From positions 1 to 56,650 of the forward strand of contig DRHS01000156.1 in assembly GCA_011053095.1 (NCBI GenBank): 56,650 nucleotides of DNA, given 5' to 3'. How positions within the stretch are numbered: the stretch's first letter is position 1; each line of letters opens with the position of its first letter. This DNA is from Bacteroides sp. (lineage in GTDB: Bacteria > Bacteroidota > Bacteroidia > Bacteroidales > SM23-62). Shown here in pieces: positions 4,793 through 30,312 of the stretch. A program made the position numbers and the translations under genes. The notes beneath the pieces are model-generated. The model was not told the origin of the DNA. It did no database searches and was given only the letters and a program-made list of their open reading frames with translations.

Positions 4793-6850
4793 ATGAGAAC
4801 GATTTTGGCCGGAATTCTTTTCCTGATGCCGATAGTTATATTGGGACAGGATGCAAAAATTTTAATGCACTGGGGATTTGAGGATGTCGAAAACCGAAAC
4901 CTGATTGAAGCATCAAGCGGTATTGCTGATACCATTGAGGGAAATTTCGATCCTGCTCCAGGGGTATTGGGACAGGGATTGCGTTTCGATGGTTTTACTA
5001 CATGTGTCAAAAGGAGCAGCATTGACAAAGCCTCAACCGGAGATGAGTTCACGGTTGAAGCCTGGGTTGCCCTCGGAAATTATCCCTGGAACTGGTGTCC
5101 TGTCCTGACCACAGAATCGAACGAAACAATGGGATACCGGCTCATGATAGGTCCTCTGGGACAGGCATCCTTTGAAGCTGCCATTAACGAACAATGGATC
5201 TCCTGCTCCAGCGAAACGGAAGCCCTTCCGTTAAGGAAATGGATACATATTACCGGTGTTTTTAAGGCTGATGAAAGCATGACACTCTATATTAACGGAG
5301 AACTGAAGGCTGAAAACAAGATCAACGGTTCCATCTCTGATCCCATGTACGACTGTACGATTGGTATGGTTGCAGCAGCTTCCAAACCCTCAGATATTCA
5401 CCGTACATGGGGAACCATTGCTGCATATTACGGGATAGATGGGATCCTGGACGAGATATCCGTCTTCGATATGGCCCTTACCCCAGATGAAGTGCTCAAA
5501 AGTTACAGCGAGAAAAATGTTCCGAAGGCAGATATTGCTCCCCGCAAATTACCTGACATAGAAGAGCATCCTGGCAGTTTTGGTGCATTTTATACCAAAC
5601 TAAAATATTATCCCGGCTGGGATGATCTCTGGCCGGTAGAACAGGATCCGGATATTGTGGTCTGTTTCGATAAATCGCCCATCAAACTCATATTCTGGCG
5701 GGGGATTCGATACGCTGCGTCATGGGTATCCGAGAACAATAACTGGATGAGTGACCAGAGCGTTGAAGCCTGGGAACATGGGGAAAAAGACAGAGAGGGC
5801 TGTTTTGAGCACATGCAGGACCGGCATTGCAGGTTTTCACATGTCAGAATCATTGAGAATACCGATGCACGTATTGTAGTTCACTGGAGGTACGCACCCG
5901 TCAGTGCTTATAACAATACCTGGCATCCTGATCCGAAAACAGGATGGGAATGCTGGATCGATGAATACTATTATATTTATCCCGATGCCACAGCCATCCG
6001 GAAGGTATCCTGGAAGAAAGGAAGCCTTGGCTATCCAAGGCAATTCCAGGAAACCCTGGCTTTGATTCATCCGGGACAAAAGATATCGGATTTGCTTGAA
6101 ACGGACTTTGCACTGGTAGGGGATTATGAAGGGAACACTGGCAAGCAATCCTTTGTTGAAGACCCGAATGTACCACCCTTCGGACCATTTAACTGGGACC
6201 AAAACCATGACTATACCATACAGCAATATGGATTTAAATCACAGCATAAACCCTTTATTTGTTTCGAACCAGGCAATAAAATATTTCTCCGGAACGGAAA
6301 ACTGGGTTCCTATGACATGGCGGGGGGCTGCAATCATTTTCCTGTGGGACAGGCCAGATGTGATGGACGAACTACCAGGATGTCCGACCGTCCTTCCCAT
6401 GCGACCTCTTTCCCGATCTCAGATCCGGTGATCCATGAGAAGGGGGACCGTTATTTCTGGAATGGCCTCTATGGGATGAATGATATGGATCTGACCGAAC
6501 TGACTGCATTTGGAAGATCCTGGGCATATGCACCCGAAGTATCTGTAAATGGATCCGGTTTTCACTCTGCCGGATACGACGGAAGTGAAAGATGTTACCA
6601 GATTGAGAACAGCGAGGGCAAAGCCGGTGAGCTCAAGATGACCCTCGCAGGCAGCAGTGACACACCTGTACATAACCCTGCCTTCTACATAAGAAACTGG
6701 AATGCCGATGGTGCAAGCGTGTTGGTAGACGGCAAGGAACTACAGGATTGCAAAACAGGGATTCATCATAAACTGGAGGGCAAAGATCTGATCGTATTTC
6801 TCAGGATGAAATCCAATTCCAATGTGATTGTAAGTATTAAGCCTGAATAA
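4793..6850 (+). CDS. LamG-domain exported protein of unrecognised family (copy 1 of 3)
   Basis: A 685-residue protein with a signal peptide (ending near Gly18-Gln19), a concanavalin-A-like LamG domain at about residues 22-240 (FTVEAWVALG, TLYINGEL, GILDEISVFDMALT), and a large C-terminal module from about residue 262 that I do not recognise. That module has aromatic and acidic blocks shared with the other two copies: FWRG, CFEHMQDRHCRFSHVR, IENTDARIVVHWRYAP, DEYYYIYPDA, CNHFPVGQARCDGRT, YGMNDMD, FGRSW and HNPAFYI.NW. The density of Trp, Tyr, Asp and Glu and the LamG partner would suit carbohydrate binding or cleavage, but no catalytic motif of a named family is visible. The paralog starts 8 bases after its stop. 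It probably acts outside the cytoplasm on the same glycan as the flanking GH95 and sulfatase. The LamG call is firm; the function is unknown. Confidence 0.85.
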   Translation: MRTILAGILFLMPIVILGQDAKILMHWGFEDVENRNLIEASSGIADTIEGNFDPAPGVLGQGLRFDGFTTCVKRSSIDKASTGDEFTVEAWVALGNYPWNWCPVLTTESNETMGYRLMIGPLGQASFEAAINEQWISCSSETEALPLRKWIHITGVFKADESMTLYINGELKAENKINGSISDPMYDCTIGMVAAASKPSDIHRTWGTIAAYYGIDGILDEISVFDMALTPDEVLKSYSEKNVPKADIAPRKLPDIEEHPGSFGAFYTKLKYYPGWDDLWPVEQDPDIVVCFDKSPIKLIFWRGIRYAASWVSENNNWMSDQSVEAWEHGEKDREGCFEHMQDRHCRFSHVRIIENTDARIVVHWRYAPVSAYNNTWHPDPKTGWECWIDEYYYIYPDATAIRKVSWKKGSLGYPRQFQETLALIHPGQKISDLLETDFALVGDYEGNTGKQSFVEDPNVPPFGPFNWDQNHDYTIQQYGFKSQHKPFICFEPGNKIFLRNGKLGSYDMAGGCNHFPVGQARCDGRTTRMSDRPSHATSFPISDPVIHEKGDRYFWNGLYGMNDMDLTELTAFGRSWAYAPEVSVNGSGFHSAGYDGSERCYQIENSEGKAGELKMTLAGSSDTPVHNPAFYIRNWNADGASVLVDGKELQDCKTGIHHKLEGKDLIVFLRMKSNSNVIVSIKPE

Positions 6851-6858
6851 TTTATATC

Positions 6859-8904
6859 ATGAATATTATCTTCCTGGGTCTGCTTTGTTTATTGCCAGCT
6901 CTGCTTTCAGCACAGGAAAGTACCCCCCTGGTGCATTGGGATTTTGAGAGGGTTGAAAACAGGAACCTGCTTGACAAGTTTGGGAATTTATCCGATACAA
7001 TCGAAGGGAATTTCGAATTTGCAGAAGGGATATTGGGTCAGGGATTGCGGTTTGACGGCTTTACAACCTGTGTAAGGAGAGAAGGTTCAAAAAAAACATT
7101 GGGCCAGGAATTTACTATTGAAGCATGGGTAGCTCCGGGAAGCTATCCCTGGAACTGGTGTCCCGTATTAAGCACCGCATCAGCTGAGACCAAAGGATTC
7201 AGAATGTTGATGGGTCCCTTGGGACAAGCCTCTTTTGAATGTGCCATCGGGGAGCAATGGATAGGCTGTACCAGTGAGGAAGAGGCCGTAACGCTCAGGG
7301 AATGGACACAAATAATTGGGGTGCTCCGGTCCGGCGGCAAAATGGAAATATACGTCAATGGCAAGTTGGCAGGAAGCAACCAGGTAAACGCTGAGCTCAT
7401 CCATCCCCGTTCCGGCATATGTATAGGCATGGTAACCTCAGCGGAAAAACCTTCCGATATCCACCGTACATGGGGCACCGTCGCTTCATATTACGGGATA
7501 GACGGGATCATGGATGAAATAAAAATATACAACAAGGCCCTGTCTGGACAAGAGGTATGGCAGAATTTTGACAATTATAATATTCCTGTTGCGGATATCC
7601 CGGCTCGCAGACTGCCTGTAATTAAAAATCATCCTTCCCGGTTCGGGGCATATTATACAAAACTAAAATACTACCCTGGATGGGATAATTTATGGCCTGT
7701 AGGGGAGGATCCTGATATTGTTGTTTGTTTCGATCAATCTCCCGTCAAACTAATTTTCTGGAGGGGGATACGGTACGGCGCGTCCTGGGTAACTGAAAAC
7801 GGAAACTGGATGACGGATCAGAGTGTGGAAGCCTGGGAACATGGTGCCAATGACAGGGAAGGCTGTTTCGAACACATGCAGGACAGGCACTGCAGGTTCT
7901 CACATGTCAGGATCATTGAGAACACCGATGCCCGTATTGTCGTTCACTGGAGGTATGCCCCAACCAGTGCCAGTCTCAATACCTGGCGGCCCGATCCCAA
8001 AACCGGATGGGAATGCTGGATTGATGAGTATTATTATATCTACCCGGATGCTTCTGCGATCCGGAAAGTGTCCTGGAAAAAGGGAAGTCTGGGATATCCT
8101 CGTCAATTCCAGGAATCACTTCCCCTGCTCGCTCCGGGTATGGTAGTTTCTGACCTGCTGGAGAAGGAATATGCCCTGGTGGCCGATTACGATAATAGCA
8201 TGGACAAATCATCTTACCTTGAGGATCCGGAAAATTCTCCCTATGGTGCCTCGGCAACCAAACCCTATACCATACAGCAATATCAATTCAAGTCTGAGAA
8301 CAAACCCTATATTTTATTTGAACCAGGCAATGAAATGTGGCTCAGAAATGCTGGTCTTGGTGCCTATGACAAGGTCCAGGGTTGCAATCATTTTCCGGTC
8401 GGACAGGCACGTTGTGACGGGCGGACATCAAGGATATCGGACCGGCCTTCTTCCTTTAACGGCTTCCCGATTTCCGATCCCCCTGTAAATGAATACGGTG
8501 ACAGAAATTACTGGTGTGGAGTTTATGGCATGAATGAAATGGACATCCATGAGTTGTCAGATTTTGGAAGATCCTGGGCATATGCACCAGCACTATTGGT
8601 TCAAACCCCCGCCACAGAATCAAAAGGATACGACAGGAGCCAAAGATGTTATCAGCTTAGAAACAAGGATGGTGATCCGGGTAAAATCGAGTTCATGCTT
8701 GAAGGCAGCCAGGAATCACCCATACATAATCCGGCATTTTATATCAAGAACTGGAACGCTGAAAAGGTCCGGGTACTCATCGATGGCAAGGAGATAAAGA
8801 ATGCGAGGACCGGAACCGATCATACCCTTGAGGGTAGGGACCTTGTCGTTTTTTTGAATTTGGAAAGCAGGTCAAAATTAAATATCACCTTTTCCCCTGA
8901 ATAG
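6859..8904 (+). CDS. LamG-domain exported protein of unrecognised family (copy 2 of 3, tandem duplicate)
   Basis: A 681-residue protein that matches the 4793 product along its whole length: signal peptide to about residue 18, LamG at about 22-240 (FTIEAWVAPGSYPWNWCPVL, GIMDEIKIYNKALSG), and the same C-terminal module from about residue 262. By eye the two are identical at most positions through CFEHMQDRHCRFSHVRIIEN, DEYYYIYPDA and GSLGYPRQFQE. They differ most in a variable stretch around residues 440-480 and after residue 560. The close similarity and 8-base spacing point to tandem duplication within the operon, and retention of all conserved blocks suggests both are functional. A GH95-like gene follows 45 bases downstream. 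The biochemical role is unknown. Confidence 0.85.
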   Translation: MNIIFLGLLCLLPALLSAQESTPLVHWDFERVENRNLLDKFGNLSDTIEGNFEFAEGILGQGLRFDGFTTCVRREGSKKTLGQEFTIEAWVAPGSYPWNWCPVLSTASAETKGFRMLMGPLGQASFECAIGEQWIGCTSEEEAVTLREWTQIIGVLRSGGKMEIYVNGKLAGSNQVNAELIHPRSGICIGMVTSAEKPSDIHRTWGTVASYYGIDGIMDEIKIYNKALSGQEVWQNFDNYNIPVADIPARRLPVIKNHPSRFGAYYTKLKYYPGWDNLWPVGEDPDIVVCFDQSPVKLIFWRGIRYGASWVTENGNWMTDQSVEAWEHGANDREGCFEHMQDRHCRFSHVRIIENTDARIVVHWRYAPTSASLNTWRPDPKTGWECWIDEYYYIYPDASAIRKVSWKKGSLGYPRQFQESLPLLAPGMVVSDLLEKEYALVADYDNSMDKSSYLEDPENSPYGASATKPYTIQQYQFKSENKPYILFEPGNEMWLRNAGLGAYDKVQGCNHFPVGQARCDGRTSRISDRPSSFNGFPISDPPVNEYGDRNYWCGVYGMNEMDIHELSDFGRSWAYAPALLVQTPATESKGYDRSQRCYQLRNKDGDPGKIEFMLEGSQESPIHNPAFYIKNWNAEKVRVLIDGKEIKNARTGTDHTLEGRDLVVFLNLESRSKLNITFSPE

Positions 8905-11412: not shown

Positions 11413-13047
11413 ATGAAAAAATCATTTTTATTCTTCTCTATTGTGGCAATCCTTTTGGGGGCTTGCCAAAGAACGAATTTGGCCCAGGATATCTCTAAAG
11501 AAAATGAACCGGGTTTTGTTGGATCGGGTACCAAGGGACTTCATGGGTATATCTGGTATAATGCCCCCCGGCCACCTGCCGGATTCGGGGCGGGAGTTGG
11601 TTTTTACTCGGCTGTATGGCCGCTGATTGATAAGCCTCTTGCAAATTTTCAGATCGGTCTGCCAAGTACCTGGATAAGTCCCGATAATTCAGATAACAAG
11701 GATACACCCCTCTGTCCGGTAGGCACCTATGCAAGGGACAATTGGGATGAGAGAGGGCCTACCTATGGAAGTGTTTTCCAGACTGTTGAAGGGGGACTGG
11801 GCTATTGGGCCGGGAACAGGTTCCGTTACGGGCCTCCCAAATTCAGTATGAATGCCACCTCCAGCTGTTATGATTTTGAAATTGCTTCTCCGGGCTGGTC
11901 TTTTTTCTATAGTAAGACAGCCCTGCCCGATGATAAAATGGGAATTGCCCAACTCAGCAACAGGGTACTGGTTCCGCCGGATGGACTTACATTTCAGGGG
12001 GATCCCAAGGGTCTCTTTATGGGTTATACTTGGATGGCTTTGCCTTTTACGGATGCCAGGGAAGGTCCACCGCCCACGGGGGATCAAAGTTGGACATTGT
12101 TCCTGAATGCATTCAATTTTAAGGGTCCCCTTGCCTATTATATACCGGAGACCTGGAGCAAAATTTCGAAGAATTATGAGTTTGATTATGGCAGGGGATT
12201 GGATGCACGGTCGGGAGTGACGGGAGGAGGAGCGATGGAAATCAACACGGTTCCACATTTTGAGGGAAAGGATGCCGAGGGTGTGACCTGGGTTAAAATC
12301 CCCCGCCTGCAATTTCCTGTAGACGAGCAGGGAAGAACCATCCTGGTGCAGGATGTGGTATATTACTCAAAGCAGGCTCTTTATGATCCATTTAAGGCCT
12401 GGAGGGATGGGGGTAAAGCCTGTACCGGGGCCTTTGATGAAACTGGCAGCATGAAACCTGAATTAAATACAGGTGAGGTCAGATATGACCAGGGCGGAAT
12501 TGAACTCAGTGGAATAGACAATATCCTGAAAACAGCGATTTTCTCCTCAAATGTTTTCGGCTTACAGTGGGAAGACAGCCCGCTGAGTCCGAAGGGCCAA
12601 TTCCCCCAATATTTTAAAGAGCAGGGAAATGTGCGGATAGCTGTATCTGCATCGGAAGTTCCCGATGAGACCCAGATAAAGTCTAAAGAGTTCGCCCTTG
12701 CCGGCAATGCAGAACCATATACTTCTCCTGATACAGGAGCATGGACGAATCCAGGACCGGCACTCGGGCCATTCAAGGTAAGCCTTGTAGATGGATCGGA
12801 GGTTACCTATTACTGGTACCGTTTTGTTGACCAGCCTTCCTTCCAGCAATTTGACTGGAGCGATGAGGAGAAAGCCAAACTTCAATCTTTTGTAGAGAAA
12901 ATTCATGCAAGCTGGTCAATCGACAGGGATTATATGCCTCCACCTGCGATTGGTGAACTGGTCACACTGGATCCGGCCCTAATCCTGACACCTCCCCCTG
13001 GATTCGAAACAGGTTATGTGCCCATTGTTACAGGCCAGGAAAAATAG
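11413..13047 (+). CDS. Lipoprotein of unknown function
   Basis: A 544-residue protein with a clear lipoprotein signal (lipobox LLGAC, Cys18) and no family I recognise. It is rich in Gly, Pro and aromatic residues, with segments such as GYIWYNAPRPPAGFG, YWAGNRFRYGPPKFSM, SGVTGGGAMEINTVP and WVKIPRLQFPVDE, which suggest a beta-rich extracellular protein. Near the end it reads DEEKAKLQSFVEKIHASW, a short predicted helix. It starts 3 bases after the GH95-like gene and so lies in the same operon. It may be a surface glycan-binding protein, an enzyme of an undescribed family or a structural lipoprotein. Sequence alone does not decide between these. Confidence 0.75.
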   Translation: MKKSFLFFSIVAILLGACQRTNLAQDISKENEPGFVGSGTKGLHGYIWYNAPRPPAGFGAGVGFYSAVWPLIDKPLANFQIGLPSTWISPDNSDNKDTPLCPVGTYARDNWDERGPTYGSVFQTVEGGLGYWAGNRFRYGPPKFSMNATSSCYDFEIASPGWSFFYSKTALPDDKMGIAQLSNRVLVPPDGLTFQGDPKGLFMGYTWMALPFTDAREGPPPTGDQSWTLFLNAFNFKGPLAYYIPETWSKISKNYEFDYGRGLDARSGVTGGGAMEINTVPHFEGKDAEGVTWVKIPRLQFPVDEQGRTILVQDVVYYSKQALYDPFKAWRDGGKACTGAFDETGSMKPELNTGEVRYDQGGIELSGIDNILKTAIFSSNVFGLQWEDSPLSPKGQFPQYFKEQGNVRIAVSASEVPDETQIKSKEFALAGNAEPYTSPDTGAWTNPGPALGPFKVSLVDGSEVTYYWYRFVDQPSFQQFDWSDEEKAKLQSFVEKIHASWSIDRDYMPPPAIGELVTLDPALILTPPPGFETGYVPIVTGQEK

Positions 13048-13336: not shown

Positions 13337-13433
13337 AAAGACCGGAAGTTTGGGTAACTGCCTGCTCATTACCTTTTATGAAAAAAGAACTGGTATTGCC
13401 CGTTAAATGTTAAACCTGAATAATATCAATAAA

Positions 13434-16091
13434 ATGATAAACAAATTCGTAAATCATATTTATAAAGCCGGAACCCTTTTCCTGGCACTTATGATTATCC
13501 CGGTATTTTTCTGTATTGGACAGGCAAATCAGACATCCTTGCTGAAATCATGGGACCAGTATAAAGTCCGGAAAAATGAAACCCGTTTCGGGGGATTAAC
13601 CTGGCGGACCGTAGGACCCTCATTCAATGGTGGTAGGGTCGAATCAGTTTCTAGTCCACCCGGTCAACCTGGAACCATATATGCAGGTTACGGTTCAGGG
13701 AATCTCTGGAAAACTACCGATCATGGCTTGCACTGGGATCCTGTCTTTGATGACCAGGCGGCTTATGGCATCGGGGATGTCGAGGTGGCTCCATCTGACG
13801 GGGAAGTAGTTTGGCTCGGTACAGGAGAGAACCTGAGGGCAACAAGGGGATTCACCATTCCCGGAACAGGTGTGTTTCGATCTGGTGACGGGGGAAAAAC
13901 ATGGGTCCACAAAGGATTATCCGACACCTACCACATTGCCCGTATCCTTGTGGATAATGAAGATCCCGGAAAGGTATACGTGGCCGCTCTGGGTCATTTT
14001 TGGACCAGGAACGAGGAAAGAGGGCTTTTCAGGACAATTGACAGTGGCAAAAATTGGAAAAAGATCCTTTATATTTCAGACAGCACAGGGATCAGTGATG
14101 TAGTAATTCACCCGGAAAACAAAGATATAATTTTCGCTGCCTCATGGGATTGTACCGGAAAAGTTGCCGGTGAAGAAACGGGTATATTCAGAAGCATCGA
14201 CGGTGGTATTAAATGGACACGATTATCGGGGGGATTTCCGGCAGGAAAAGATATCAGCCGGATAGGGTTGGCCATCTCCTCCGGCCCTCCCTATAAACTA
14301 TATGCCCTCGTTGACAACCGGAGCAAACCCGATACCGTGGAGGAGGGGGTGATCGGGGCTGAATTATACAGGTCTGAAAACATGGGAGATAGCTGGATCA
14401 AAACACATGAAGATGATCTTCCAATCTATGCCGGTTTTGGATGGGCTTTCGGGGATCTTCGCGTTTCTCCTGACAATTCAAACGAGGTCTACCTGCTTGG
14501 TGTAAAGATGGTTCATTCTACAGATGCCGGGAAAACCTTCGATTACATCTGGGATCCGGTTGATCACCTTTTTCCCAATGCCGGAGTTTATTTGCATCTT
14601 GACCAGCATGATCTCTGGATAGACCCGGATGATCCCAACCATCTTATTCTGGGGAACGACGGAGGAGTATTTGTCTCCTATAACCGTGGCAGAACCTGGC
14701 TCCATTATAACAATATGCCGGTCGGTGAGTTCTATTGCATTTCCGCCGATTCCCTTAACCCCTACAATGTATATGGCGGGACCCAGGATAATTCCTCTGT
14801 ATTTGGCCCTGTTAACCTTTCCCTGGATGACGGATACGCCGATAACTGGGAATATGTATGGGTAGATCCCTGGTCCGGCGGAGACGGGTTTGTCACCCTG
14901 GCTGATCCGCTTGATCCGAATATAAAATATTACGAAGCCCAGATGGGAGCTATTCAACGTAAAAATATGTCAACCGGAGAAAATGTTTCGATCAGACCTT
15001 CGCTTGAAGAGGAGGATGAAAAGATCAGGTATGAGTGGCAGACACCCTATTTTATTTCCCACCATAATCCTTTAACCCTTTATTTCGGGGGAAGTAAAAT
15101 ATTTAAAAGCCTTAACCGGGGGGATGACTGGAACTGTATAAGCCCTGACCTTACAGAGTCTACCAATACCGACCGAAAGAGCAGGGGGGTGACAGAACTC
15201 TCTGAATCTGTCATAAAACCAGGCTTATTGTATGCCGGGACCAATCTTGGCATGGTATGGATAACGCAAAACGACGGGGTTACCTGGCGCGAGCGATCGG
15301 GCAATTTGCCGCATTGTTATGTCAAAGACATAGAACCTTCATCACATGAAGATTCGTTAGTATATATAGTACTCTCGGGAATAGAAAAGGATGATTTCAC
15401 ATCCTATGTATTTGTATCTGAAAATTATGGAATGGACTGGAAAAGCATTTCTTCAGGACTGCCGGACGAGCCTGTGAATACTCTCCTGGAGGACCCGGGA
15501 AACCCAGATATACTCTATGCCGGGACTTTCCGTTCCGTCTACGTGTCGGTTGATCGTGGAAAACACTGGGAGATGCTGGGGACAGGAATGCCTGCCTGTT
15601 TTGTGCAGGATCTGATCATCCAGCCTCAGGCCGGAGAACTCATAGCTGCTACCCACGGGAGGAGTATTTTTGTGATGGATATCCGGGGCATCCGGCAGTA
15701 TTTTGACAGTACATCGGTAGAAGATAAAAATGCCTTCTTTGATATTCCCATGGCAAAATTGCCCGGTTCCAAGGACTACAGAAGTGATTGGGATTTGCGA
15801 AGCCGCATAAATGCAAAATTTACATTCTATCTGATAAAAGATCAACCGGTTGAACTGACCGTTACTGATCCCGGCGGGGAATCCGTATTTCATAAAAAAT
15901 GGAAAGGGAATACGGGGTTTAATGAATTGGATTGGGACCTGGTAAAGGAGGTTAAAAAAGGAAAATCTGTCTACGCCCTGCCGGATATCACCTTTACCGA
16001 TTCTGGAGATTATAAGGTTGTATTGTCAGGAAAAGGATTCAGCCTGGAGCAGAACCTGATGATTACGGAAGCTGGTAATTATGATAAATAA
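13434..16091 (+). CDS. Exported Asp-box (BNR/sortilin-like) beta-propeller protein
   Basis: About 885 residues with a signal peptide (KAGTLFLALMIIPVFFCIGQA) and many Asp-box repeats of the S-x-D-x-G-x-x-W type: FRSGDGGKTW, FRTIDSGKNW, FRSIDGGIKW, YRSENMGDSW, VSYNRGRTW, VSENYGMDW and VSVDRGKHW. These mark a multi-bladed propeller of the sortilin/VPS10 or sialidase fold. GIGDVEVAPSD, LGNDGG and HGRSIFVMDI are typical of large Bacteroidota members annotated as VPS10- or BNR-repeat proteins. A C-terminal beta domain follows near residue 750. No sialidase Arg triad or FRIP motif was identified, so an enzymatic role is not claimed. An ATG at 13407 would add 9 residues; the ATG at 13434 gives the better signal peptide. 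The 3' end overlaps the next gene by 11 bases. A paralog lies on the minus strand at 20397. Confidence 0.82.
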   Translation: MINKFVNHIYKAGTLFLALMIIPVFFCIGQANQTSLLKSWDQYKVRKNETRFGGLTWRTVGPSFNGGRVESVSSPPGQPGTIYAGYGSGNLWKTTDHGLHWDPVFDDQAAYGIGDVEVAPSDGEVVWLGTGENLRATRGFTIPGTGVFRSGDGGKTWVHKGLSDTYHIARILVDNEDPGKVYVAALGHFWTRNEERGLFRTIDSGKNWKKILYISDSTGISDVVIHPENKDIIFAASWDCTGKVAGEETGIFRSIDGGIKWTRLSGGFPAGKDISRIGLAISSGPPYKLYALVDNRSKPDTVEEGVIGAELYRSENMGDSWIKTHEDDLPIYAGFGWAFGDLRVSPDNSNEVYLLGVKMVHSTDAGKTFDYIWDPVDHLFPNAGVYLHLDQHDLWIDPDDPNHLILGNDGGVFVSYNRGRTWLHYNNMPVGEFYCISADSLNPYNVYGGTQDNSSVFGPVNLSLDDGYADNWEYVWVDPWSGGDGFVTLADPLDPNIKYYEAQMGAIQRKNMSTGENVSIRPSLEEEDEKIRYEWQTPYFISHHNPLTLYFGGSKIFKSLNRGDDWNCISPDLTESTNTDRKSRGVTELSESVIKPGLLYAGTNLGMVWITQNDGVTWRERSGNLPHCYVKDIEPSSHEDSLVYIVLSGIEKDDFTSYVFVSENYGMDWKSISSGLPDEPVNTLLEDPGNPDILYAGTFRSVYVSVDRGKHWEMLGTGMPACFVQDLIIQPQAGELIAATHGRSIFVMDIRGIRQYFDSTSVEDKNAFFDIPMAKLPGSKDYRSDWDLRSRINAKFTFYLIKDQPVELTVTDPGGESVFHKKWKGNTGFNELDWDLVKEVKKGKSVYALPDITFTDSGDYKVVLSGKGFSLEQNLMITEAGNYDK

Positions 16092-17661
16092 GATATTAAT
16101 AATAATGCTCCTGGCCGGTTTAACTGCCTGCACTGATTCTCTGGGAAGGAAGGCCCAAAAGGGCACTCACCTGAACGTGCCTGTACTGGATCCGGATTCC
16201 TTTAAAAAATACATTGATAATTTTAACAATACTGATGAGGAGTTGTATGCGCAATATTACCCAAATGATATAGCCTGGGATTTCCTCAAAAACAACATTC
16301 CGTTTTTTGATTGCCCGGACAAGGAGCTGGAGCGGATCTATTATTTCAGGTGGTGGACATACCGAAAGCATATTAAGCTGACTCCGGATGGATTTATCAT
16401 CACGGAATTCTTGCCGGATGTAAGCTGGTCCGGGAAACATAATTCTATCTCTTGTCCGGGTGCACATCATTTCTATGAGGGCCGCTGGCTTCATAATCCA
16501 CGGTACCTGGACGATTATGCAGTCTTCTGGTTCAGAAAGGGTGGAAGTCCACGGAGCTATAGCTTCTGGGCTGCAGATGCCATCTTCAACTGTTCGATGG
16601 TAAAAGGGAATATGGATATGGCGGGTGAGCTTCTTCCAGATCTGGTAAATAATTATTATGAATGGGAGAAGAAAAGGCTGGAACCCGACGGACTCTTCTG
16701 GCAGATAGATGACCGGGATGGGATGGAAGTATCGGTTGGGGGAAGTGGAAAACGGGCTACCATTAACAGTTACATGTATGGTGATGCGAAAGCCATCTCG
16801 GAAATAGCCCTTTTAAATGGCCAACCGGATATCGTGGAAACATTCTCCGCAAAGGGATCTCATTTAAAGCAACTTGTTCTGGATAAATTATGGGATGAGG
16901 AAGCTGGATTCTTTAAAACACTTTCAAGGGATACAAATGAATTGACCGACGTCAGGGAACTTCACGGCTATACCCCTTGGTACTTCAATCTTCCGGAAAA
17001 GGACGCGGGCTATGAAACAGCCTGGGAACATATCATGGATAAAAGTGGTTTCTATGCACCTTATGGTCTAACATCGGCTGAGCAGAAGCATCCGGGATTC
17101 AAAATATCCTACCAGGGACATGCATGCCAGTGGAACGGTCCCAGCTGGCCATTTGCTACTTCCGTCACACTGACCGCGATGGCCAATCTCCTCAATAATT
17201 ATGAGCAGGATATAGTCAGTAAAGGTGATTATTTTGAACAATTGAGGATATATGCCGGGAGCCATAAACTGAAGAAGGATAATGGAGAACTGGTTCCCTG
17301 GATAGATGAGAACCTGGATCCCTATACAGGGGAATGGTTATCAAGAAAAATGTTAATGCCGGCAAGTAAAGAAAGGGGGAAGGATTACAATCATTCCACT
17401 TTCAACGACCTGATTATTACGGGATTAGTAGGGTTACGGCCCAGAATGGATGAAATTATCGAGATCAATCCCCTCGTCCCCGGGGATACCTGGGATTGGT
17501 TCTGCCTGGATAATATAAAATACCATGACCACATCATAACCATAGTATGGGACAGAAATGGTAGCAGATATAACCTTGGTAAGGGCCTTATGATCCTTTC
17601 CAATGGTAAATTAATAGCAAAAACAAGGCATCTTGATAAACTAAAGGGAACACTGAACTAA
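16081..17661 (+). CDS. MGH1-like (alpha/alpha)6-barrel glycosidase lipoprotein
   Basis: A 526-residue lipoprotein (lipobox GLTAC, Cys17) resembling the mannosylglycerate-hydrolase-like and GH63-type (alpha/alpha)6 barrel family. Supporting segments are YYFRWWTYRKHI near residue 83, LEPDGLFWQIDDRDGMEVSVGG, TINSYMYGDAKAI, ELHGYTPWYF, and QWNGPSWPFATSVTLTAMANLL near residue 352, where the GPSWP block is typical of the fold. The Asp pair in QIDDRDG and Glu residues in the C-terminal helices are candidate catalytic groups, but I cannot assign them. It likely acts as an exo-glycosidase at the outer membrane or in the periplasm. Its start lies inside the end of the preceding propeller gene (11-base overlap), so the two are translationally linked. 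The substrate is unknown. Confidence 0.75.
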   Translation: MINKILIIMLLAGLTACTDSLGRKAQKGTHLNVPVLDPDSFKKYIDNFNNTDEELYAQYYPNDIAWDFLKNNIPFFDCPDKELERIYYFRWWTYRKHIKLTPDGFIITEFLPDVSWSGKHNSISCPGAHHFYEGRWLHNPRYLDDYAVFWFRKGGSPRSYSFWAADAIFNCSMVKGNMDMAGELLPDLVNNYYEWEKKRLEPDGLFWQIDDRDGMEVSVGGSGKRATINSYMYGDAKAISEIALLNGQPDIVETFSAKGSHLKQLVLDKLWDEEAGFFKTLSRDTNELTDVRELHGYTPWYFNLPEKDAGYETAWEHIMDKSGFYAPYGLTSAEQKHPGFKISYQGHACQWNGPSWPFATSVTLTAMANLLNNYEQDIVSKGDYFEQLRIYAGSHKLKKDNGELVPWIDENLDPYTGEWLSRKMLMPASKERGKDYNHSTFNDLIITGLVGLRPRMDEIIEINPLVPGDTWDWFCLDNIKYHDHIITIVWDRNGSRYNLGKGLMILSNGKLIAKTRHLDKLKGTLN

Positions 17662-17695
17662 ATAGTAATGAACTAAATAATAGATCAAATCTACC

Positions 17696-20392
17696 ATGAG
17701 AAATAATTTGTTTATACCTGGTATATTGTTTACTGCCTTTTCAGCAACATTTTGTCTGTTTAATAGCCCGGTGGCTTATTCACAAACTCCAGGTTTCTAT
17801 GCCTATTATACGAGGCTTGGTTTTGAGGACGGAAACAATACAGGGAAATATGCCGATATAGTCATCAATGTAAACCAACTCGGAGAATTTGTTTTTAGCC
17901 GGGAATACAGTTATTTGCCATATCTGCAAATTGGAAACTCCAAACATTTTGTTGACAAGATAATTCCAATTATTGGTGACGGACCGGCTGAAAGGCCCGA
18001 CAGAATAAATAAATGTTCATCTGTAAGAGTGATTGAGAACACATCCGATAAAATTATCATACACTGGAGATATGCCCCGGACCTGAACAGTGAAAATTTT
18101 ACAGATTTTAAGAGTAGTTATGGTGGGGATATTGGGAAATATTTTGCCGATTATGTAGATGAATATTTCACAATAAATCCTGATGGTTCTGTTATAAGAA
18201 CAGTCAAAAAGGGCTGTTATTCACTCGATGAGTGGAATGATCCTATGAATGCGACTACCCAGGCATTTGAACTTACATCCAAAGGTATTGTCAACAAAAG
18301 CACTACAACGGCAAAATTGCAGTCCATTCCTGGTGATCCGGTTAAGGGAACTGCCATTAAAAACGGTGGTAATAAATCCCCGGCTGCGTGGTGGAGGTTT
18401 GACGAAGGATTAAGTAAAAATTACAAGCTTACAAAAGAGAGTATTCAAGGCCATGATTGTGTCATCTCCGGTATGGATAGCTATTGGAGGGCAGGAGTGT
18501 CCGGAACAAGTTTGTCTTTTGATGGTTATACCAATAAGGTAAGCCTGCCTGCTTCCCAGGTACCTGAGATAAGTGGTGATTTCACAATCGAAGCCTGGAT
18601 CGCGCCCCAGGAATATTCATGGAACTGGTCAGGTATTGTTGATCATGACCAGGATAAGCGAGCCGGATATTCCCTGGGAATAAACCATTTGGGTCAGATC
18701 GGATTGCATGCATATATAGCGGGGGAATGGCAGGGATTGATCAGCAGTGAAAAGGTGGACCTGTTAAAATGGACACTGGTCACCGGTGTTTATGAAAAAA
18801 CAAAAGGATTTTCTATTTATTTCAATGGAGTATTAATGAATTCCAAGCCTGTATCGGGGGAGATATTGGATGCAAAAGAGCTGGACCTTTATATTGGCAT
18901 GGCTCATGAGAAACAATATCATTGGGCTTTTGAACGTAACGTCACAACATCATTTCTTTCCAATATGGTTTTCAGTGGATTGATCGATGAGGTCAGGATA
19001 TTTGACAGGGCCCTTGCATCATCAGAAATATCCACTGATTATCAGGCATTTAAACCTGACAACGTGCAACCTTTGCAGTATTGGGTTTTACCCGCCGGAC
19101 CAGAAAAGGCAGGCGGTTTTGGAGCTGCCTATACGAAACTTGAATGCAGTCCTGAATGGGATGGACTATGGCGTGTTGGTGAGTATACGGATATCCTTGT
19201 TTCTTTTGATGATAAACCCAGCCGCTTTGTATTCTGGAGGGGCACAAATTATCTTCCCAGCCTGGTTACAAAACCTGGTGCTGAAGGCATCTGGAATAGT
19301 GACCAGGGACCTGAAGATTATACAGACGAATGCTTTGAGCATATGTCAGATAAAATTTGCCGGTTCTCTCATGTTCGGCTAATTGAGAATACCGATGCCA
19401 GGGTAGTTGTTCACTGGCGCAATGCAAGCGTTAGTATTTCTTATGAGTGGCTGCAGGAAGATGAGAACGGATGGGGCTTATGGACCGATGAGTACTGGTA
19501 TATATATCCGGATGCTGTATCTGTACGGTATCAGGTGAGCGGACGTCTGGCCGATTTTCACGACATACAGACACAGCAAAATGAATTACTCAGCCAGCCC
19601 GGAACAAGACCGGAAGACATTGTTCCTTTTGATGCGATCACTCTTTCTAATTTGGAAGGGGAAACCGAGACATGGAATTACTCTGTTGGAAAGACCTTCA
19701 GGAACGGGGCAGCGATTGGTGGGAATAAAAATCTTGTCTATATGAATCTCAAATCCGAATACAAACATTTTAATATTGGTGAGGTCGGTTCAAATTGGCG
19801 CCCCTATAGTCAATGGCAATCTATGAGGCTTGGACCGGGATTATCGAGATATAATACATGGAACCATTATCCTTTCGGAATTTTGCCCAGTGATGGTACC
19901 GTAAGAACCGGAACAGACCGGGTAAGCAGTTCCTGCCTTGGCACATTAGATGGATTGCATCATCTTCTGGATGATGGCCGGACGGAGGCATATAATATTT
20001 ATGGGATGACCAATCTTCCTGCTTCTGATTTGAAGATGCTTAACCGTTCATGGAACAGCGCAGCTGCAATTACAGATTTGAACCGATGTGAAAGCAGTGG
20101 ATATGACAAGAGACAAAGGGCATACCTTATTAATAAAGAATCAGACGGATTTTCATTCAGTCTTCAAGGTTCTGAGACAGAGCCTATTGTGAATCCTTGT
20201 TTTGTAATTAAGGACTGGGGCAGCCAGTCTTTGGCAGACCTGGAAATCAATGGGGAAAAGATAATCCCGGACAGAAATTTCCGCCAGGGTATCATAAGGG
20301 ATACGGACGGCACAGAAACGATGATCATCTGGATCAGGCAAGAATCACTACAACCGGTAAATTATAAAATCCAGTCCAGCGCCAGCTTATAG
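17696..20392 (+). CDS. LamG-domain exported protein of unrecognised family (copy 3 of 3, with partial internal duplication)
   Basis: An 898-residue relative of the 4793 and 6859 products with a different architecture. A signal peptide (to about residue 30) is followed by a half-copy of the conserved module at about 32-190 (FYAYYTRL, ADIVINVNQ, SVRVIENTSDKIIIHWRYAP, DEYFTINPDGSVIRT). LamG follows at about 228-450 (FTIEAWIAPQEYSWNW, GLIDEVRIFDRALAS), and the complete module runs from about 472 to the end (FGAAYTKL, FWRGTNY, CFEHMSDKICRFSHVR, IENTDARVVVHWRNA, DEYWYIYPDA, GYDKRQRAYL, NPCFVIKDW). The N-terminal half-copy lacks the CFEHM block and has lost many aromatic residues. It follows the MGH1-like gene by 34 bases and ends 4 bases before the convergent minus-strand gene. 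The function is unknown. Confidence 0.83.
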   Translation: MRNNLFIPGILFTAFSATFCLFNSPVAYSQTPGFYAYYTRLGFEDGNNTGKYADIVINVNQLGEFVFSREYSYLPYLQIGNSKHFVDKIIPIIGDGPAERPDRINKCSSVRVIENTSDKIIIHWRYAPDLNSENFTDFKSSYGGDIGKYFADYVDEYFTINPDGSVIRTVKKGCYSLDEWNDPMNATTQAFELTSKGIVNKSTTTAKLQSIPGDPVKGTAIKNGGNKSPAAWWRFDEGLSKNYKLTKESIQGHDCVISGMDSYWRAGVSGTSLSFDGYTNKVSLPASQVPEISGDFTIEAWIAPQEYSWNWSGIVDHDQDKRAGYSLGINHLGQIGLHAYIAGEWQGLISSEKVDLLKWTLVTGVYEKTKGFSIYFNGVLMNSKPVSGEILDAKELDLYIGMAHEKQYHWAFERNVTTSFLSNMVFSGLIDEVRIFDRALASSEISTDYQAFKPDNVQPLQYWVLPAGPEKAGGFGAAYTKLECSPEWDGLWRVGEYTDILVSFDDKPSRFVFWRGTNYLPSLVTKPGAEGIWNSDQGPEDYTDECFEHMSDKICRFSHVRLIENTDARVVVHWRNASVSISYEWLQEDENGWGLWTDEYWYIYPDAVSVRYQVSGRLADFHDIQTQQNELLSQPGTRPEDIVPFDAITLSNLEGETETWNYSVGKTFRNGAAIGGNKNLVYMNLKSEYKHFNIGEVGSNWRPYSQWQSMRLGPGLSRYNTWNHYPFGILPSDGTVRTGTDRVSSSCLGTLDGLHHLLDDGRTEAYNIYGMTNLPASDLKMLNRSWNSAAAITDLNRCESSGYDKRQRAYLINKESDGFSFSLQGSETEPIVNPCFVIKDWGSQSLADLEINGEKIIPDRNFRQGIIRDTDGTETMIIWIRQESLQPVNYKIQSSASL

Positions 20393-20396
20393 GAGA

Positions 20397-23033
20397 CTAG
20401 TATAGGTTGGGAGATTTTCCATCCAGGATAATTAGTTCCCGACTCAGGGTATCCTTACCCACCAGCAACTGCATGCTGTAGGATCCGGATTCAAGAAATG
20501 TTTCATAATGAATGAAATAAGGTTGATCGCTATCTTCCCTTTTGTATATCAGGTCCCAGCGAATCTCGTTAAATCCTTCCTGGCCATCCAGCCTGGTGGA
20601 CCAGACCAACTCATTCCCTGGATTCATAAGTTCAAGTGACACCTGCTGGGAAGTAGATAGCCAGAAGCTGATAGGTACCTTTTTGAGGGTACGGTAATCG
20701 GGTTTCCCTCGGGTGTCATTTTGCCAGGGACGGTGAACCGCCGGGATTTTAAACAAATGGTTCTCCTCAGGGCCTGCTTTATCTGAATATCCTGTCTGAA
20801 TTGGTTTAATATTCATTTTATAAATACCACGGCCATGGGTTGCAGCAATCAGGTCCATAGACGGCTCATGTATCTCCATATCTGCAATGCTTGCTGCCGG
20901 CATATTCTTCCCCAGATATGACCATTGATTGCCCCGGTCAGTTGAGATATAGACCCCCCTGTACATCCCGGCGTAAAGAATATTTTCATTTGTCGGATCC
21001 TCAAGGATTACGTTTGCAGGTTCATCCGGAAGCTTTGATCCCAGTGATCTCCAGTTTTCCCCGTAATTTTCTGATACATACAGGTAATTGCCCAGGTCAT
21101 CGTAATTGATTCCCGTAATTGCCATATATACCCTCTTTTTATTAAACCTTGAGGGACAAATACTCAAGATGTAATTATCCGGGATCCCTTTCGATTGTTC
21201 CTTCCATGACAGGCCATCGTCTTGCGATACCCAGAATGCTCCCCTGTCGGTACCCAAATAGAGCAGTCCGGGTTGTAACGGTGACTCCGCCAATGCTCCT
21301 GCTGCTGTTGATTTTTTTGTTTCAACAGAGGACAGGGAAAGATCTCCACTGATCAGTTCCCAATGATCACCACGATCGGTACTCTTAAAGACAAAATTGC
21401 CTGCATGGTAAAGTGTTTTGGAATGATGTGCTGATATGAAATATGGGGTGACAAAATTAAACCGGAGGCTATCCCCGTATTCTTCAGGCAGCTCTGGCCT
21501 GATGGAAGTCGAACTGTCTATTGCCATGTTTAAGCGTCTGGCAGCACCATTTTGAGCGCTGAAGTACACTGTATTGGGATCTTCCGGATCGACCTGCGTT
21601 ACACAGCCGTCGCCTCCGTTCCAGGCATCTATCCAGAGATATTTCCACCTGTCAGGAAAAGCGGGATTCCATTCTTCCGGTGGACCATATACAGTGGCAT
21701 CATCCTGGACGCCTCCATAGATTTGATATGGAGTCTGATGATCCAGCGTGATGTCATAAAATTCACCGGCAGGAATGTTGTTATAATGCATCCAGGATTT
21801 ACCCCTGTCATAACTGATGTACAATCCACCGTCATTCCCCAGGGCAAGGTGATCGGGATTACCGGGATGGATCCAGAGCTCACAATGATCGAGATGGAGT
21901 CCATGGGCTGCACTGGGTGTAATATGTGCCACATCACCTCCCATTATGGCAAATGTTTTCCCTCCATCAGCACTGTGAGCCAGCCTTACACCCAGCGCAA
22001 ATATTTCATCATCATTCGCCGGACTCACATAAATATCTGTAAAATACCAGCCTATTACCGAAAAAATCTTCAGGTCTTCCTGGTGGGTCCTTTCCCAGTG
22101 CAATCCTCCATCGAGGGTTTTATACACCTCGGCTGCATCGTCATTTTCATTGCTCCGGTTATCAACCAGTACATAGGCTTTGTCAGGATTGGTATAGGAT
22201 ACGGCCAGACCCATTCTACCGGTCCCATACCCCTGCGGCAAACCGATGTTACGCGCTGACCAGGTCTTTCCACCATCGCTGCTCCTGTAAACTCCGCTGT
22301 TGGGACCGCTGACACCCGGATTATTCTCCCACATGGAAGCATACAGGATATCAGGATCTGAAGGAGAGATGACAATATCATTGGCGCCGGTTTGATCATC
22401 ATTATAAAGAACTTGTTTCCAGGATTCTCCTCCATCATTTGTGCGAAAAACGCCCCTGTTCTCATTCTTGGACCAAAAATGCCCAAGCACACTCACCAGG
22501 ACGATATCAGGATTATGGGGGTGAACGGCAATCTCTCCAATATGCCAGGAATCATCAAGTCCAAGGTGCCTCCAGGTTTCGCCGGCATCATCCGACCGGT
22601 AGATACCTGTCCCCGGCATGGTAAAATTCCTTGCTTTTTTGAGGCTTTCTCCCGTCCCCACATAAATGATATTGGGATTTGACGGAGCAAGTGCAAAATC
22701 CCCTATCCCAAGCGATGGCTGGCCTTCAAAAATCGGTTTCCAGGATATGCCATGGTTAACCGACTTCCATAAATTGCCGGAACCAAATGCAATATACATG
22801 GTACCCGGATGCTCAGGGTCGAGTTGTACGGCCTCCACACGTGCTGAATTCAGTGTTGGTCCAAGGCTTATCCAGTCCAATTTAAAGACCGTCTCCATTT
22901 TCATCAAACGATGCATTTCAAAGGAAGCAACCAGGGGAGAAACCGGCTGCTGCGCAAGCATGGTCATGTGAGGTAGAATGATTAGGAGGAGGGCCAGGAC
23001 TTTCTTGACAGGGCTGATCATTTTCATATTCAC
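20397..23033 (-). CDS. Exported Asp-box (BNR/sortilin-like) beta-propeller protein, paralog
   Basis: An 878-residue protein, the only gene on the minus strand. A signal peptide (VKKVLALLLIILPHMTMLAQ) is followed by many Asp boxes: YRSDDAGETW, FRTNDGGESW, YRSSDGGKTW, YKTLDGGLHW, ISYDRGKSW, VSENYGENW and ISTDRGNQW. It aligns block by block with the 13434 product (WISLGPTLNSARVEAV, LGHFWSKNENRGVFRT, LGNDGGLYISYDRG, LPDEPANVILEDP, AATHGRGIYKMNI), so the two are paralogs, although clearly diverged. A C-terminal beta domain may mediate surface attachment or binding. No catalytic sialidase residues were recognised. It is divergent from the sulfatase at 23171 across 137 bases and convergent with the LamG gene. 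Confidence 0.82.
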   Translation of the reverse strand: MNMKMISPVKKVLALLLIILPHMTMLAQQPVSPLVASFEMHRLMKMETVFKLDWISLGPTLNSARVEAVQLDPEHPGTMYIAFGSGNLWKSVNHGISWKPIFEGQPSLGIGDFALAPSNPNIIYVGTGESLKKARNFTMPGTGIYRSDDAGETWRHLGLDDSWHIGEIAVHPHNPDIVLVSVLGHFWSKNENRGVFRTNDGGESWKQVLYNDDQTGANDIVISPSDPDILYASMWENNPGVSGPNSGVYRSSDGGKTWSARNIGLPQGYGTGRMGLAVSYTNPDKAYVLVDNRSNENDDAAEVYKTLDGGLHWERTHQEDLKIFSVIGWYFTDIYVSPANDDEIFALGVRLAHSADGGKTFAIMGGDVAHITPSAAHGLHLDHCELWIHPGNPDHLALGNDGGLYISYDRGKSWMHYNNIPAGEFYDITLDHQTPYQIYGGVQDDATVYGPPEEWNPAFPDRWKYLWIDAWNGGDGCVTQVDPEDPNTVYFSAQNGAARRLNMAIDSSTSIRPELPEEYGDSLRFNFVTPYFISAHHSKTLYHAGNFVFKSTDRGDHWELISGDLSLSSVETKKSTAAGALAESPLQPGLLYLGTDRGAFWVSQDDGLSWKEQSKGIPDNYILSICPSRFNKKRVYMAITGINYDDLGNYLYVSENYGENWRSLGSKLPDEPANVILEDPTNENILYAGMYRGVYISTDRGNQWSYLGKNMPAASIADMEIHEPSMDLIAATHGRGIYKMNIKPIQTGYSDKAGPEENHLFKIPAVHRPWQNDTRGKPDYRTLKKVPISFWLSTSQQVSLELMNPGNELVWSTRLDGQEGFNEIRWDLIYKREDSDQPYFIHYETFLESGSYSMQLLVGKDTLSRELIILDGKSPNLY

Positions 23034-27208: not shown

Positions 27209-29125
27209 ATGATAAAAAATAAATGTCAATTGTTTTTAATACAGCTTCTAGTATATTTATTAGTGATAGGGTGTAATCAGGCTCCGGTACCCGGGGGAGA
27301 ATACCCCATCACACCCGTGCCCTTTACCAGTGTGCATATAATGGATGATTTCTGGGGACCGAGAATCAAGCGTAATCACGAGATTACCATACCCATTGCA
27401 TTTTATCAATCTGAAATCACCGGCAGGATAAAGAATTTTGAAGTTGCAGGTGGTTTGAAAAAGGGGAGCTTCAATTCTCTTTTTGCTTTCGATGATTCGG
27501 ATGTTTATAAGATTATCGAAGGAGCGAGCTATTCATTACAGACAATTCCTGATCCGGAATTAGAGGCTTATCTTGACAGCCTTATTTATAAAATCGGGAT
27601 GGCTCAGGAGGACGATGGTTATCTGTATACAAACAGGACAATTCTTGGGGATAATGCATCGGATATGGCAGGTCCCTATCGCTGGATCAATGTTGAAAAA
27701 GGAAGCCATGAACTGTATAATGTTGGCCATATGTATGAGGCAGCAGTTGCCTTCTATGAAGTGACCGGCAAACGTAGCTTACTTGAGGTTGCTATTAGAA
27801 ATGCCGACCTGATTCACCAGGAATTTGGCTTGCAGGCCAATACTTCTGCCCCAGGTCATCAGGAAATAGAAATTGGGCTTGTAAAACTTTATAGAACAAC
27901 CGGAGATGAGAAGTATCTAAACCTGGCTAAGTTTTTTCTGGATGTACGGGGACCCGGTGGACATAAGCAATTACAACAACATGCGAAGGTCATTGACCAG
28001 ACTGAAGCTGTTGGACATGCAGTACGGGCTACATACATGTTTTCGGCAATGGCTGATATTGCTGCCCTGGAGAAAGATTCTGTCTATGTTGAGGTGATAG
28101 ATAAAATATGGGAGGATATCGTTTATAAAAAGACCTATATAACCGGTGGAATCGGAACCCATGCCGGGAATGAAGGTTTCGACCAGCCTTACGTTCTTCC
28201 AAACATGGAAGCTTATGCTGAAACTTGCGCTTCCATTGGGAATATATTTTTGAATCACCGGCTGTATCTGTTGCATGGAGAGTCAAAATATTTTGATATG
28301 CTTGAAAGGACCCTCTACAACAGTATGCTTTCAGGTGTCTCCCTTTCAGGGGATATGTTTTTCTATCCCAATCCGCTGGCCTCATCCGGGCAGCACAAAC
28401 GGAGTGAGTGGTTCGGATGTGCATGTTGTCCCTCTAATATTTCAAGATTTATACCTGCCGTACCTGGATATATCTATGCGAAGACGGCTGATGAAATCTT
28501 TGTAAACCTCTTCATTGAGAATCAAGCCTCCCTGGAGCTCAAGGGTCAGCAAATACAGCTTAAACAAGCAACAAAATATCCCTGGGAAGGCAAGATTGAA
28601 ATCACTATTAATCCCAAGGAAAGCATGCGTTTCAGTTTAAATATCCGCCGTCCGGGTTGGGTGGAAAATGAGGCGATCCCAGGTGGATTGTACAGGTTTA
28701 CCGGGGAAAGCAAGGTTTCTATTAAACTCATGGTCAATGATGAACCTGTTGATGTCTCTGTGAAAGATGGGTATATGGTCATCAACAGAAAATGGAAAGC
28801 AGGCGACAGGGTTACGCTTGAGTTACCTATGGAAGTACGGAAAATTTCAGCAGATACCAGAATAGAAGCAAACCTGGATAAGGTCAGCATACAACGAGGC
28901 CCACTGGTATATTGTGCAGAGTGGCCGGATAACGAAAATGTCAGGATACATGAACTGGTACTGAATAAAGATGTTCCCACGAGTACTTTGTTTGATCCTG
29001 AGTTACTGGGAGGAACACAAATCATAAAGACCAGGGCAGGAGAATCAGACCTGACACTCATTCCTTATCACCTGTGGAATAACAGGGGACCCGGAGATAT
29101 GGCGGTTTGGTTATCGGTAAAATAG
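27209..29125 (+). CDS. GH127 family beta-L-arabinofuranosidase-like lipoprotein
   Basis: A 638-residue lipoprotein (lipobox VIGC, Cys22) of the GH127 (DUF1680) family. The metal-thiolate active site of the family archetype HypBA1 is fully visible: the acid/base is Glu322 in GNEGF, the zinc ligands are Glu338 and Cys340 in AETCA, and the two Cys of CACCPSN are Cys406 (nucleophile position) and Cys407. Other markers are FWGPRIKRN near the start, YLYTNRT and WRAGD-like WKAGDRVTLELP near the end. The expected reaction is retaining hydrolysis of beta-L-arabinofuranosides, though related families act on other furanosides or pyranosides such as 3-C-carboxy-5-deoxy-L-xylose. It sits downstream of GH95 and upstream of a URO-D-like gene. 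Confidence 0.94.
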   Translation: MIKNKCQLFLIQLLVYLLVIGCNQAPVPGGEYPITPVPFTSVHIMDDFWGPRIKRNHEITIPIAFYQSEITGRIKNFEVAGGLKKGSFNSLFAFDDSDVYKIIEGASYSLQTIPDPELEAYLDSLIYKIGMAQEDDGYLYTNRTILGDNASDMAGPYRWINVEKGSHELYNVGHMYEAAVAFYEVTGKRSLLEVAIRNADLIHQEFGLQANTSAPGHQEIEIGLVKLYRTTGDEKYLNLAKFFLDVRGPGGHKQLQQHAKVIDQTEAVGHAVRATYMFSAMADIAALEKDSVYVEVIDKIWEDIVYKKTYITGGIGTHAGNEGFDQPYVLPNMEAYAETCASIGNIFLNHRLYLLHGESKYFDMLERTLYNSMLSGVSLSGDMFFYPNPLASSGQHKRSEWFGCACCPSNISRFIPAVPGYIYAKTADEIFVNLFIENQASLELKGQQIQLKQATKYPWEGKIEITINPKESMRFSLNIRRPGWVENEAIPGGLYRFTGESKVSIKLMVNDEPVDVSVKDGYMVINRKWKAGDRVTLELPMEVRKISADTRIEANLDKVSIQRGPLVYCAEWPDNENVRIHELVLNKDVPTSTLFDPELLGGTQIIKTRAGESDLTLIPYHLWNNRGPGDMAVWLSVK

Positions 29126-29151
29126 CCTCGAAATCAAAATATCATAGAGCA

Positions 29152-30312
29152 ATGAGTGAATACACAAGTTATGAAAGAGTAAAAGCCGCTCTGGAGCACC
29201 GTGAACCGGATAAAATTCCTTTCGATCTGGGAGGAACCATGGTTTCTGGTATAAATATTAATGCTTTACACGCCTTAAAGAAATACCTGGGACTTCCCGG
29301 TGAGGCTGAAATCAAAGACAGGGTAACCCAGATGGCATCAACGGGAGAGGACGTCATTGAACGGTTGGGCGTAGATATTAAAAATGTCTCTCCAAGATCT
29401 TCACCACAGGGAATGTTAAAGGAACTCGGAGTCCGGGAAGGATATATTAGAATTGAAGACGAATGGGGGATGCGTTGGAGGATGCCAGTTCAAAACGGAC
29501 ATTATTATGACCTGTATTACAGTCCCCTGAGAGATGCAACAAGTATTTCAGATATTGAGAAATTTTCCTGGCCTGATGCACTTGATACAGAAAGATACAG
29601 CGGCATGAGAAAAGAGGCGAATCAAATTGTTTTTGAAGAGCAGAAGGCATATGTTCTAGGCAGGATGAGTTCCGGGATGTGGGAGCATGCCATGTGGATG
29701 AGAGGTTATGAGCAATTCTTTATGGATATGATGATGAATCCCGGAATTGTGCAGGCAATTATGGAACAGATCCTCGCAATAAAAATGCAATATTGGGAAA
29801 GAGCACTGGAGGAAGTAGGTGAAAATGTGATGGTAGTCTCCTGTGCCGATGACCTGGGAATGCAGACAGGCTTACTGGTGGAACTTGACACCTATAAAAA
29901 GCAGATATGGCCATACCATAAAAGATTGTTCGATTTCATTAAGTCAAAAGCGAAATCAAAGGTTTATATATTTTTTCATAATGATGGAGCCATTATGGAA
30001 ACAATACCTCTCCTGATAGAAGCCGGCGTGGATATCCTTAACCCTTTCCAGGTAAACTGCACCGGGATGGATACAAAAAAATTCAAAAAAGAGTACGGCA
30101 ATCAACTTACCATATGGGGGGGCAGTTGTGACAACCAGACCATTATGCCATTTGGTACTCCACAGCAGGTGAGGGATGAAACCAAAAGAAGGATAGATGA
30201 CCTGGCAGCCGGGGGTGGATTTATTTTCGCACCCATTCACGTTATCCAGGCAGGTGTCCCACCGGAGAATATAATGGCCTGGTGGGAAACGCTGAATGAA
30301 TTCAATTATTAG
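29152..30312 (+). CDS. Uroporphyrinogen-decarboxylase-like (methyltransferase-type) protein, zinc site absent
   Basis: A 386-residue cytoplasmic protein without signal peptide, of the URO-D superfamily that also contains the corrinoid:thiol methyltransferases MtaA/MtbA. It opens with YERVKAALEHREPDKIPFDLGG, typical of the family, and contains EAGVDILNPFQVNCTGMD and IMPFGTPQQVRDE. At the place where methyltransferase members have the zinc motif H-x-C, this protein reads H276-N-D. The later Cys near GGGFIFAP is also missing, although Cys326 occurs in GGSCDNQ. It therefore should not bind zinc in the MtaA manner. An ATG/GTG start at 29107 would overlap GH127; 29152 (MSEYTSYERV) gives the usual N-terminus. 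A paralog with an intact site is at 52051. The function in this locus is unknown. Confidence 0.85.
   Translation: MSEYTSYERVKAALEHREPDKIPFDLGGTMVSGININALHALKKYLGLPGEAEIKDRVTQMASTGEDVIERLGVDIKNVSPRSSPQGMLKELGVREGYIRIEDEWGMRWRMPVQNGHYYDLYYSPLRDATSISDIEKFSWPDALDTERYSGMRKEANQIVFEEQKAYVLGRMSSGMWEHAMWMRGYEQFFMDMMMNPGIVQAIMEQILAIKMQYWERALEEVGENVMVVSCADDLGMQTGLLVELDTYKKQIWPYHKRLFDFIKSKAKSKVYIFFHNDGAIMETIPLLIEAGVDILNPFQVNCTGMDTKKFKKEYGNQLTIWGGSCDNQTIMPFGTPQQVRDETKRRIDDLAAGGGFIFAPIHVIQAGVPPENIMAWWETLNEFNY

Follow-up and report, generated by a model that had tools for sequence, protein, structure and literature searches.

A fixed half-module, LamG and full-module order in an unnamed family of putatively secreted, glycan-acting proteins

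The 898-residue protein encoded at 17696-20392 (+) of the window (the whole 56,650-nucleotide stretch analysed) carries two homologous regions of unequal length on either side of a LamG domain. This protein, the third of three related copies (copy 3), is better described as having the fixed domain order of an unnamed family than as the product of a duplication in copy 3. We propose that it belongs to an old subfamily with the order signal peptide, half-module, LamG and full module, and that half and full module have come to divide the labour of a secreted protein acting on polysaccharide. We give this combined explanation a probability of about 65%.

Results

Copy 3 begins with a predicted Sec-type signal peptide (residues 1-30, 17696..17785; hydrophobic N-terminal helix 8-21 in the structural model), which evolves fast and is 36% identical to its orthologue, compared with ~90% for the domains. 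The half-module follows (residues 32-205, 17789..18310; homologous core ~34-200), delimited by the self-match, profile alignment (hhalign), 33 complete proteins and dN/dS. A variable linker (residues 206-228, 18311..18379; 65% orthologue identity, pLDDT <50 at 209-225) separates it from the LamG region (residues 229-455, 18380..19060; pLDDT mostly >90). This region belongs to Laminin_G_3 (PF13385, ConA-like lectin/glucanase superfamily), with a Pfam core at residues 276-446 (18521-19033; E 5.4e-24; 85.5 bits against a gathering cut-off of 27.6); the Pfam family matches the central domain and covers neither half nor full module. The full module (residues 456-898, 19061..20389) was defined by alignment with 83 homologous modules and by an AlphaFold2 model. 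It contains the part homologous to the half (residues 472-640, 19109..19615, from the self-match and hhalign) and the CFEHM block (residues 546-550, 19331..19345), nearly invariant in full modules and missing in halves. All these features lie on the forward strand, as do copy 1 (4793..6850) and copy 2 (6859..8904), in which LamG directly follows the signal peptide and is succeeded by a full module, without a half.

Sequence comparison shows homology between residues 34-200 and 472-640, with LamG lying between the two. BLASTP of residues 1-270 against 441-898 aligned 25-196 with 466-634 (E = 9e-12, 29% identity), and the self-match reached a Smith-Waterman score of 123, against a mean of 35.5 (s.d. 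5.7, maximum 75) for shuffled sequences, with none of 1000 shuffles as good. The half also matched the modules of copies 1 and 2 (scores 153 and 142; 0/1000 shuffles as good in each case). When a profile of 12 halves was compared with one of 84 full modules, the match had a probability of 99.8% (E 1e-27, 160 columns) and aligned half columns 6-169 with module columns 13-181. The match stops at column 181 of 440, and the homologous stretch comprises the first ~170 of ~440 module residues, or 40% rather than half. No DNA-level similarity was found between half and full module in copy 3, and within the full module the N-terminal part showed no homology to the C-terminal part (hhalign probability 3%). 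The preliminary description, made from the sequence of this DNA, had read copy 3 as a half-copy, then LamG, then the full module, and had set self-alignment of residues 32-190 with 472-640 as a test; the alignment lies well above chance and the ranges are nearly those claimed. Its account of the motifs was also accurate: IEN..HWRYAP and DEY remain in the half, as proposed for the IENT...HWRYAP and DEY cores, and along with CFEHM several aromatics (W488, W492, W514, W596 and Y604) are missing from halves or vary among them.

The same description had called the half-copy degenerate, a reading that selection contradicts. Comparison with an orthologue 88% identical gave dN/dS values of 0.081 (half), 0.108 (LamG), 0.089 (full module) and 0.35 (linker), so the half is as constrained as the rest of the protein and bears no sign of the relaxed selection of a decaying pseudo-domain. 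Both copies conserve Y38/Y479, D54/D499, R69/R515, D102/D552, H123-W124-R125/H573-W574-R575, E156/E599 and R168/R611; the charged core is kept at 93-100% in halves and >90% in full modules. Halves have lost D489, W492, Q537, E540, C546, E548, M550, R569, W596 and Y604; C546, E548 and M550 are present at frequencies of 0.96, 1.0 and 1.0 in full modules and 0.0, 0.1 and 0.17 in halves. S72, F158 and G197-I198 are conserved specifically in halves. Low dN/dS and conservation together show the half to be a functional domain maintained by selection. It offers a built-in comparison, in which residues common to both copies mark the fold core, whereas those restricted to full modules (CFEHM, E540, R569 and Y604) are first candidates for the working site.

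The half-LamG-full order is not peculiar to copy 3. A scan of genome contigs identified 79 loci with relatives, 12 of them encoding this order. With the contig loci, a search of 1,582 genomes and the completion of cut frames combined, it was present in 33 complete proteins (two near-identical) among 129 distinct full modules, with a gap from half to full module of 222-296 residues in every case. The hosts are Bacteroidota, Planctomycetota, Verrucomicrobiota and one genome belonging to the same phylum as an Aminicenantes genome. A partial internal duplication in copy 3, as originally suggested, does not account for an order shared by 33 proteins of several phyla. Halves were rare in an even draw, with at most four genomes per phylum sample of ~300-400 (preselected genomes included), a count that is a lower bound since each genome was scored on its best candidates only. 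Apart from frames cut by the end of a locus, no half was found without LamG and full module downstream in the 1,582 genomes and 79 contig loci. The idea that the first ~160 residues form an independent domain that can be duplicated therefore holds in part: they are a separate evolutionary unit, present twice in one protein, but were never seen alone or in other contexts.

The short relatives (copies 1 and 2 and ~96 distinct proteins of LamG plus full module) belong to the same full-module family, with full modules 33% identical to that of copy 3. Most have LamG in front and their gene neighbourhoods resemble that of copy 3; unlike copy 3, they have no half before LamG. Some long relatives carry additional domains, with one fused to GH27-NPCBM (L078) and two in which an FAD-dependent oxidoreductase (PF12831, FAD_oxidored) is fused to half-LamG-full in one frame (L140 1-3606 and L179 277-4617). 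A further protein has two full-type modules in tandem with no LamG between them (L124 736-3438, -). One planctomycete genome (G214, loci L170-L176) encodes seven or more half-LamG-full proteins along with numerous further weak candidates, a strong expansion of the family.

Phylogenetic analysis placed the separation of half and full module deep in the family. In trees of the shared region (~240 columns), the halves formed a single clade with full support (100) against all full modules, both with 12 and with 29 halves. The halves and the full modules are separated by ~2.4-3.2 changes per column; the root was set at the midpoint, and long branches may make the split look older than it is. A half's own full module was its best match in only one of 31 proteins, and the mean score of a half was 134.4 against its own full module and 134.0 against others. 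This is not the pattern of a recent tandem duplication, in which the partner within the protein would be closest and the order confined to close orthologues. Half and full-module identities correlated across proteins (r = 0.82; r = 0.51 without close relatives; 0/2000 permutations as high in each case), the pattern that joint inheritance of the two would produce. Within the limits of ~240-column trees, these data show that half and full module derive from one ancestral domain, parted before full modules spread across phyla, and that they have been inherited together since the split.

In the complete full-module tree, the long proteins fell into three groups interleaved with short proteins, and a single clade of long proteins was weakly rejected (p-AU 0.040). 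Taken with the single clade of halves, this interleaving favours an ancestral half that was lost several times, or moved between genes, over one late gain, an inference kept tentative by midpoint rooting and long branches. The short copies 1 and 2 may have lost the half.

AlphaFold2 models were obtained for copy 3 as a whole (mean pLDDT 86) and for the full module alone (pLDDT 91.9, pTM 0.93). The half was less confidently predicted in the whole-protein model, with 10-residue means of 45-95 and poorly predicted loops. Its modelled strands (E34-40, 53-59, 63-67, 75-79, 82-85, 109-115, 120-126, 154-160, 165-172, 187-194 and 197-204) lie at positions equivalent, by alignment, to those of the full module's initial strands. 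Among solved structures, the full-module model was best matched by the galactose mutarotase-like supersandwich (C-terminal domain of LacZ, galactose 1-epimerase and C-terminal region of GH38), with Foldseek E values of 3.6e-9 for 6sd0, ~6e-6 for E. coli LacZ and 2.8e-5 for the galactose 1-epimerase 3imh. Both are all-beta and mostly antiparallel, but TM-scores were just 0.27-0.36 with rmsd 9-16 A; the best value (0.36 by query length, rmsd 14 A) lies below the >0.5 taken to indicate the same fold. The modelled full module thus faintly resembles this supersandwich and would not be a member of it.

Profile and sequence searches did not place the modules in a catalogued family. Pfam gave no recurring match in 84 full modules at E up to 1 and none for the half, PDB sequences gave no significant match for either, and NCBIfam gave only TafC, over the LamG part and far below cut-off; neither module matched a glycoside hydrolase or polysaccharide lyase profile in Pfam or NCBIfam. 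A PDB profile match to AgCarC2, a C-glycoside deglycosidase small subunit, was within chance (E 0.16-0.18, ~40 columns). The whole-protein fold search gave only matches that we attribute to the ConA-like fold shared with LamG, such as those to clostridial neurotoxin receptor-binding domains (TM <0.2 by query length), and they carry no information on the function of copy 3. A literature search returned nothing relevant on the family beyond gene-cluster context.

That context is a carbohydrate-degradation cluster. The window encodes six or nearly six sulfatase-type proteins, five of them confirmed by Pfam (1000, 23171, 34661, 39624 and 41371), together with GH95 enzymes at 8950 and 24742, a third, truncated GH95 at 39 (identified by BLAST), GH127, GH78, GH29, GH31, GH43-CBM6, an L-rhamnose mutarotase-family protein and a sodium:solute symporter. 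Gene clusters for the degradation of sulfated methyl-pentoses (fucose and rhamnose) have been described in Verrucomicrobiota (PMC8857213), and the window resembles them in combining sulfatases with GH29, GH95 and GH78. The word 'laminin' is absent from PMC8857213, so the copy 3 family is seemingly not described there.

Discussion

The resemblance of the cluster to sulfated fucose/rhamnose clusters and the fusions to GH27-NPCBM and FAD oxidoreductase lead us to infer a secreted, glycan-acting protein. Copy 3 would be exported, its LamG would bind a sulfated polysaccharide rich in fucose or rhamnose, and its full module would act on the polysaccharide or hold it, with its nearly invariant CFEHM, E540, R569 and Y604 forming or framing a putative working site. 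The half, keeping the charged fold core only, would be a non-equivalent partner rather than a second working site, either lying alongside LamG and the module or providing a second glycan contact. We consider the evolutionary part of this explanation (an old subfamily, an ancient split of half and full module, and joint inheritance) very probable, and hold the putative functional division of labour tentatively, at somewhat less than even odds.

Several other explanations were weighed against this one. That the half arose from copy 3's own full module by partial internal duplication and has been decaying since would fit two homologous copies in one protein, yet it is very improbable given the occurrence of the order in several phyla, the single best match to an own module among 31 halves, the separate clade of halves, a dN/dS as low as that of the rest of the protein and the lack of DNA-level similarity. 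A different history, in which half-LamG-full is ancestral to the whole LamG-module family and short proteins such as copies 1 and 2 lost the half several times, is a real possibility, although we would not bet on it: the halves are one clade, the full modules of long proteins lie in three groups among short ones, and a tree rooted on the halves has long proteins branching first. Set against this, the deep forks are modestly supported, several rows are long-branched, the tree has no true outgroup, and recombination moving the half between genes would yield the same pattern. An extension in which this ancestral state belongs to a widespread, undescribed family acting on polysaccharide and half and module form an intramolecular pseudo-dimer with a joint site, short proteins having arisen by repeated loss, appears to us unlikely.

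As to what the half does, it could be a structural spacer or chaperone-like segment without ligand contact, its charged residues forming a buried salt-bridge network for folding. Retention of the same charged residues in both copies is what a fold core would show, but the half-specific S72, F158 and G197-I198 suggest a role of its own, and a spacer would not need 90% conservation, level with the rest of the protein; we regard this reading as rather doubtful. It is less probable still that the half is a second working site of different specificity in a bifunctional protein. Strong selection would accord with such a site, as would an H-W-R and D/E/R set that is 93-100% conserved; the half nevertheless misses ~250 module residues and has lost CFEHM, E540, R569 and Y604, all typical of full modules. 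The division of labour that we prefer assigns those features to the full module, a domain that carries no annotation and is common in the polysaccharide-degradation clusters of four or more phyla. Residues restricted to full modules make the function of the family testable by ordinary mutation and binding work.

Several other genes in and around these loci are of note. A 544-residue protein without a Pfam match (window 11413-13047) recurs beside proteins of this family in 14 of the retrieved loci, and a homologue (61%) fused to a LamG-full module (L083 5856-9551) suggests that the two work together. Two URO-D-family proteins (window 29107-30312 and 52051-53166) are 28% identical to each other, and a homologue (60-66%) directly follows the long protein at two loci (L084 10578 and L086 10644). 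Two Sortilin/BNR-repeat proteins that are 44% identical to each other are encoded close to copy 3, one on each strand (13407-16091, + and 20397-23033, -). In the MAG of a close relative (L045 and L085, compared with window 13407-23033), the genes that precede copy 3 in the window (13407 and 16081) are 96-97% identical and lie on another contig with other neighbours, and copy 3 and the next gene are 85-88% identical to the window; a local rearrangement or mosaic is possible. An M60/enhancin-type peptidase is encoded inside the carbohydrate cluster (window 48277-50451).
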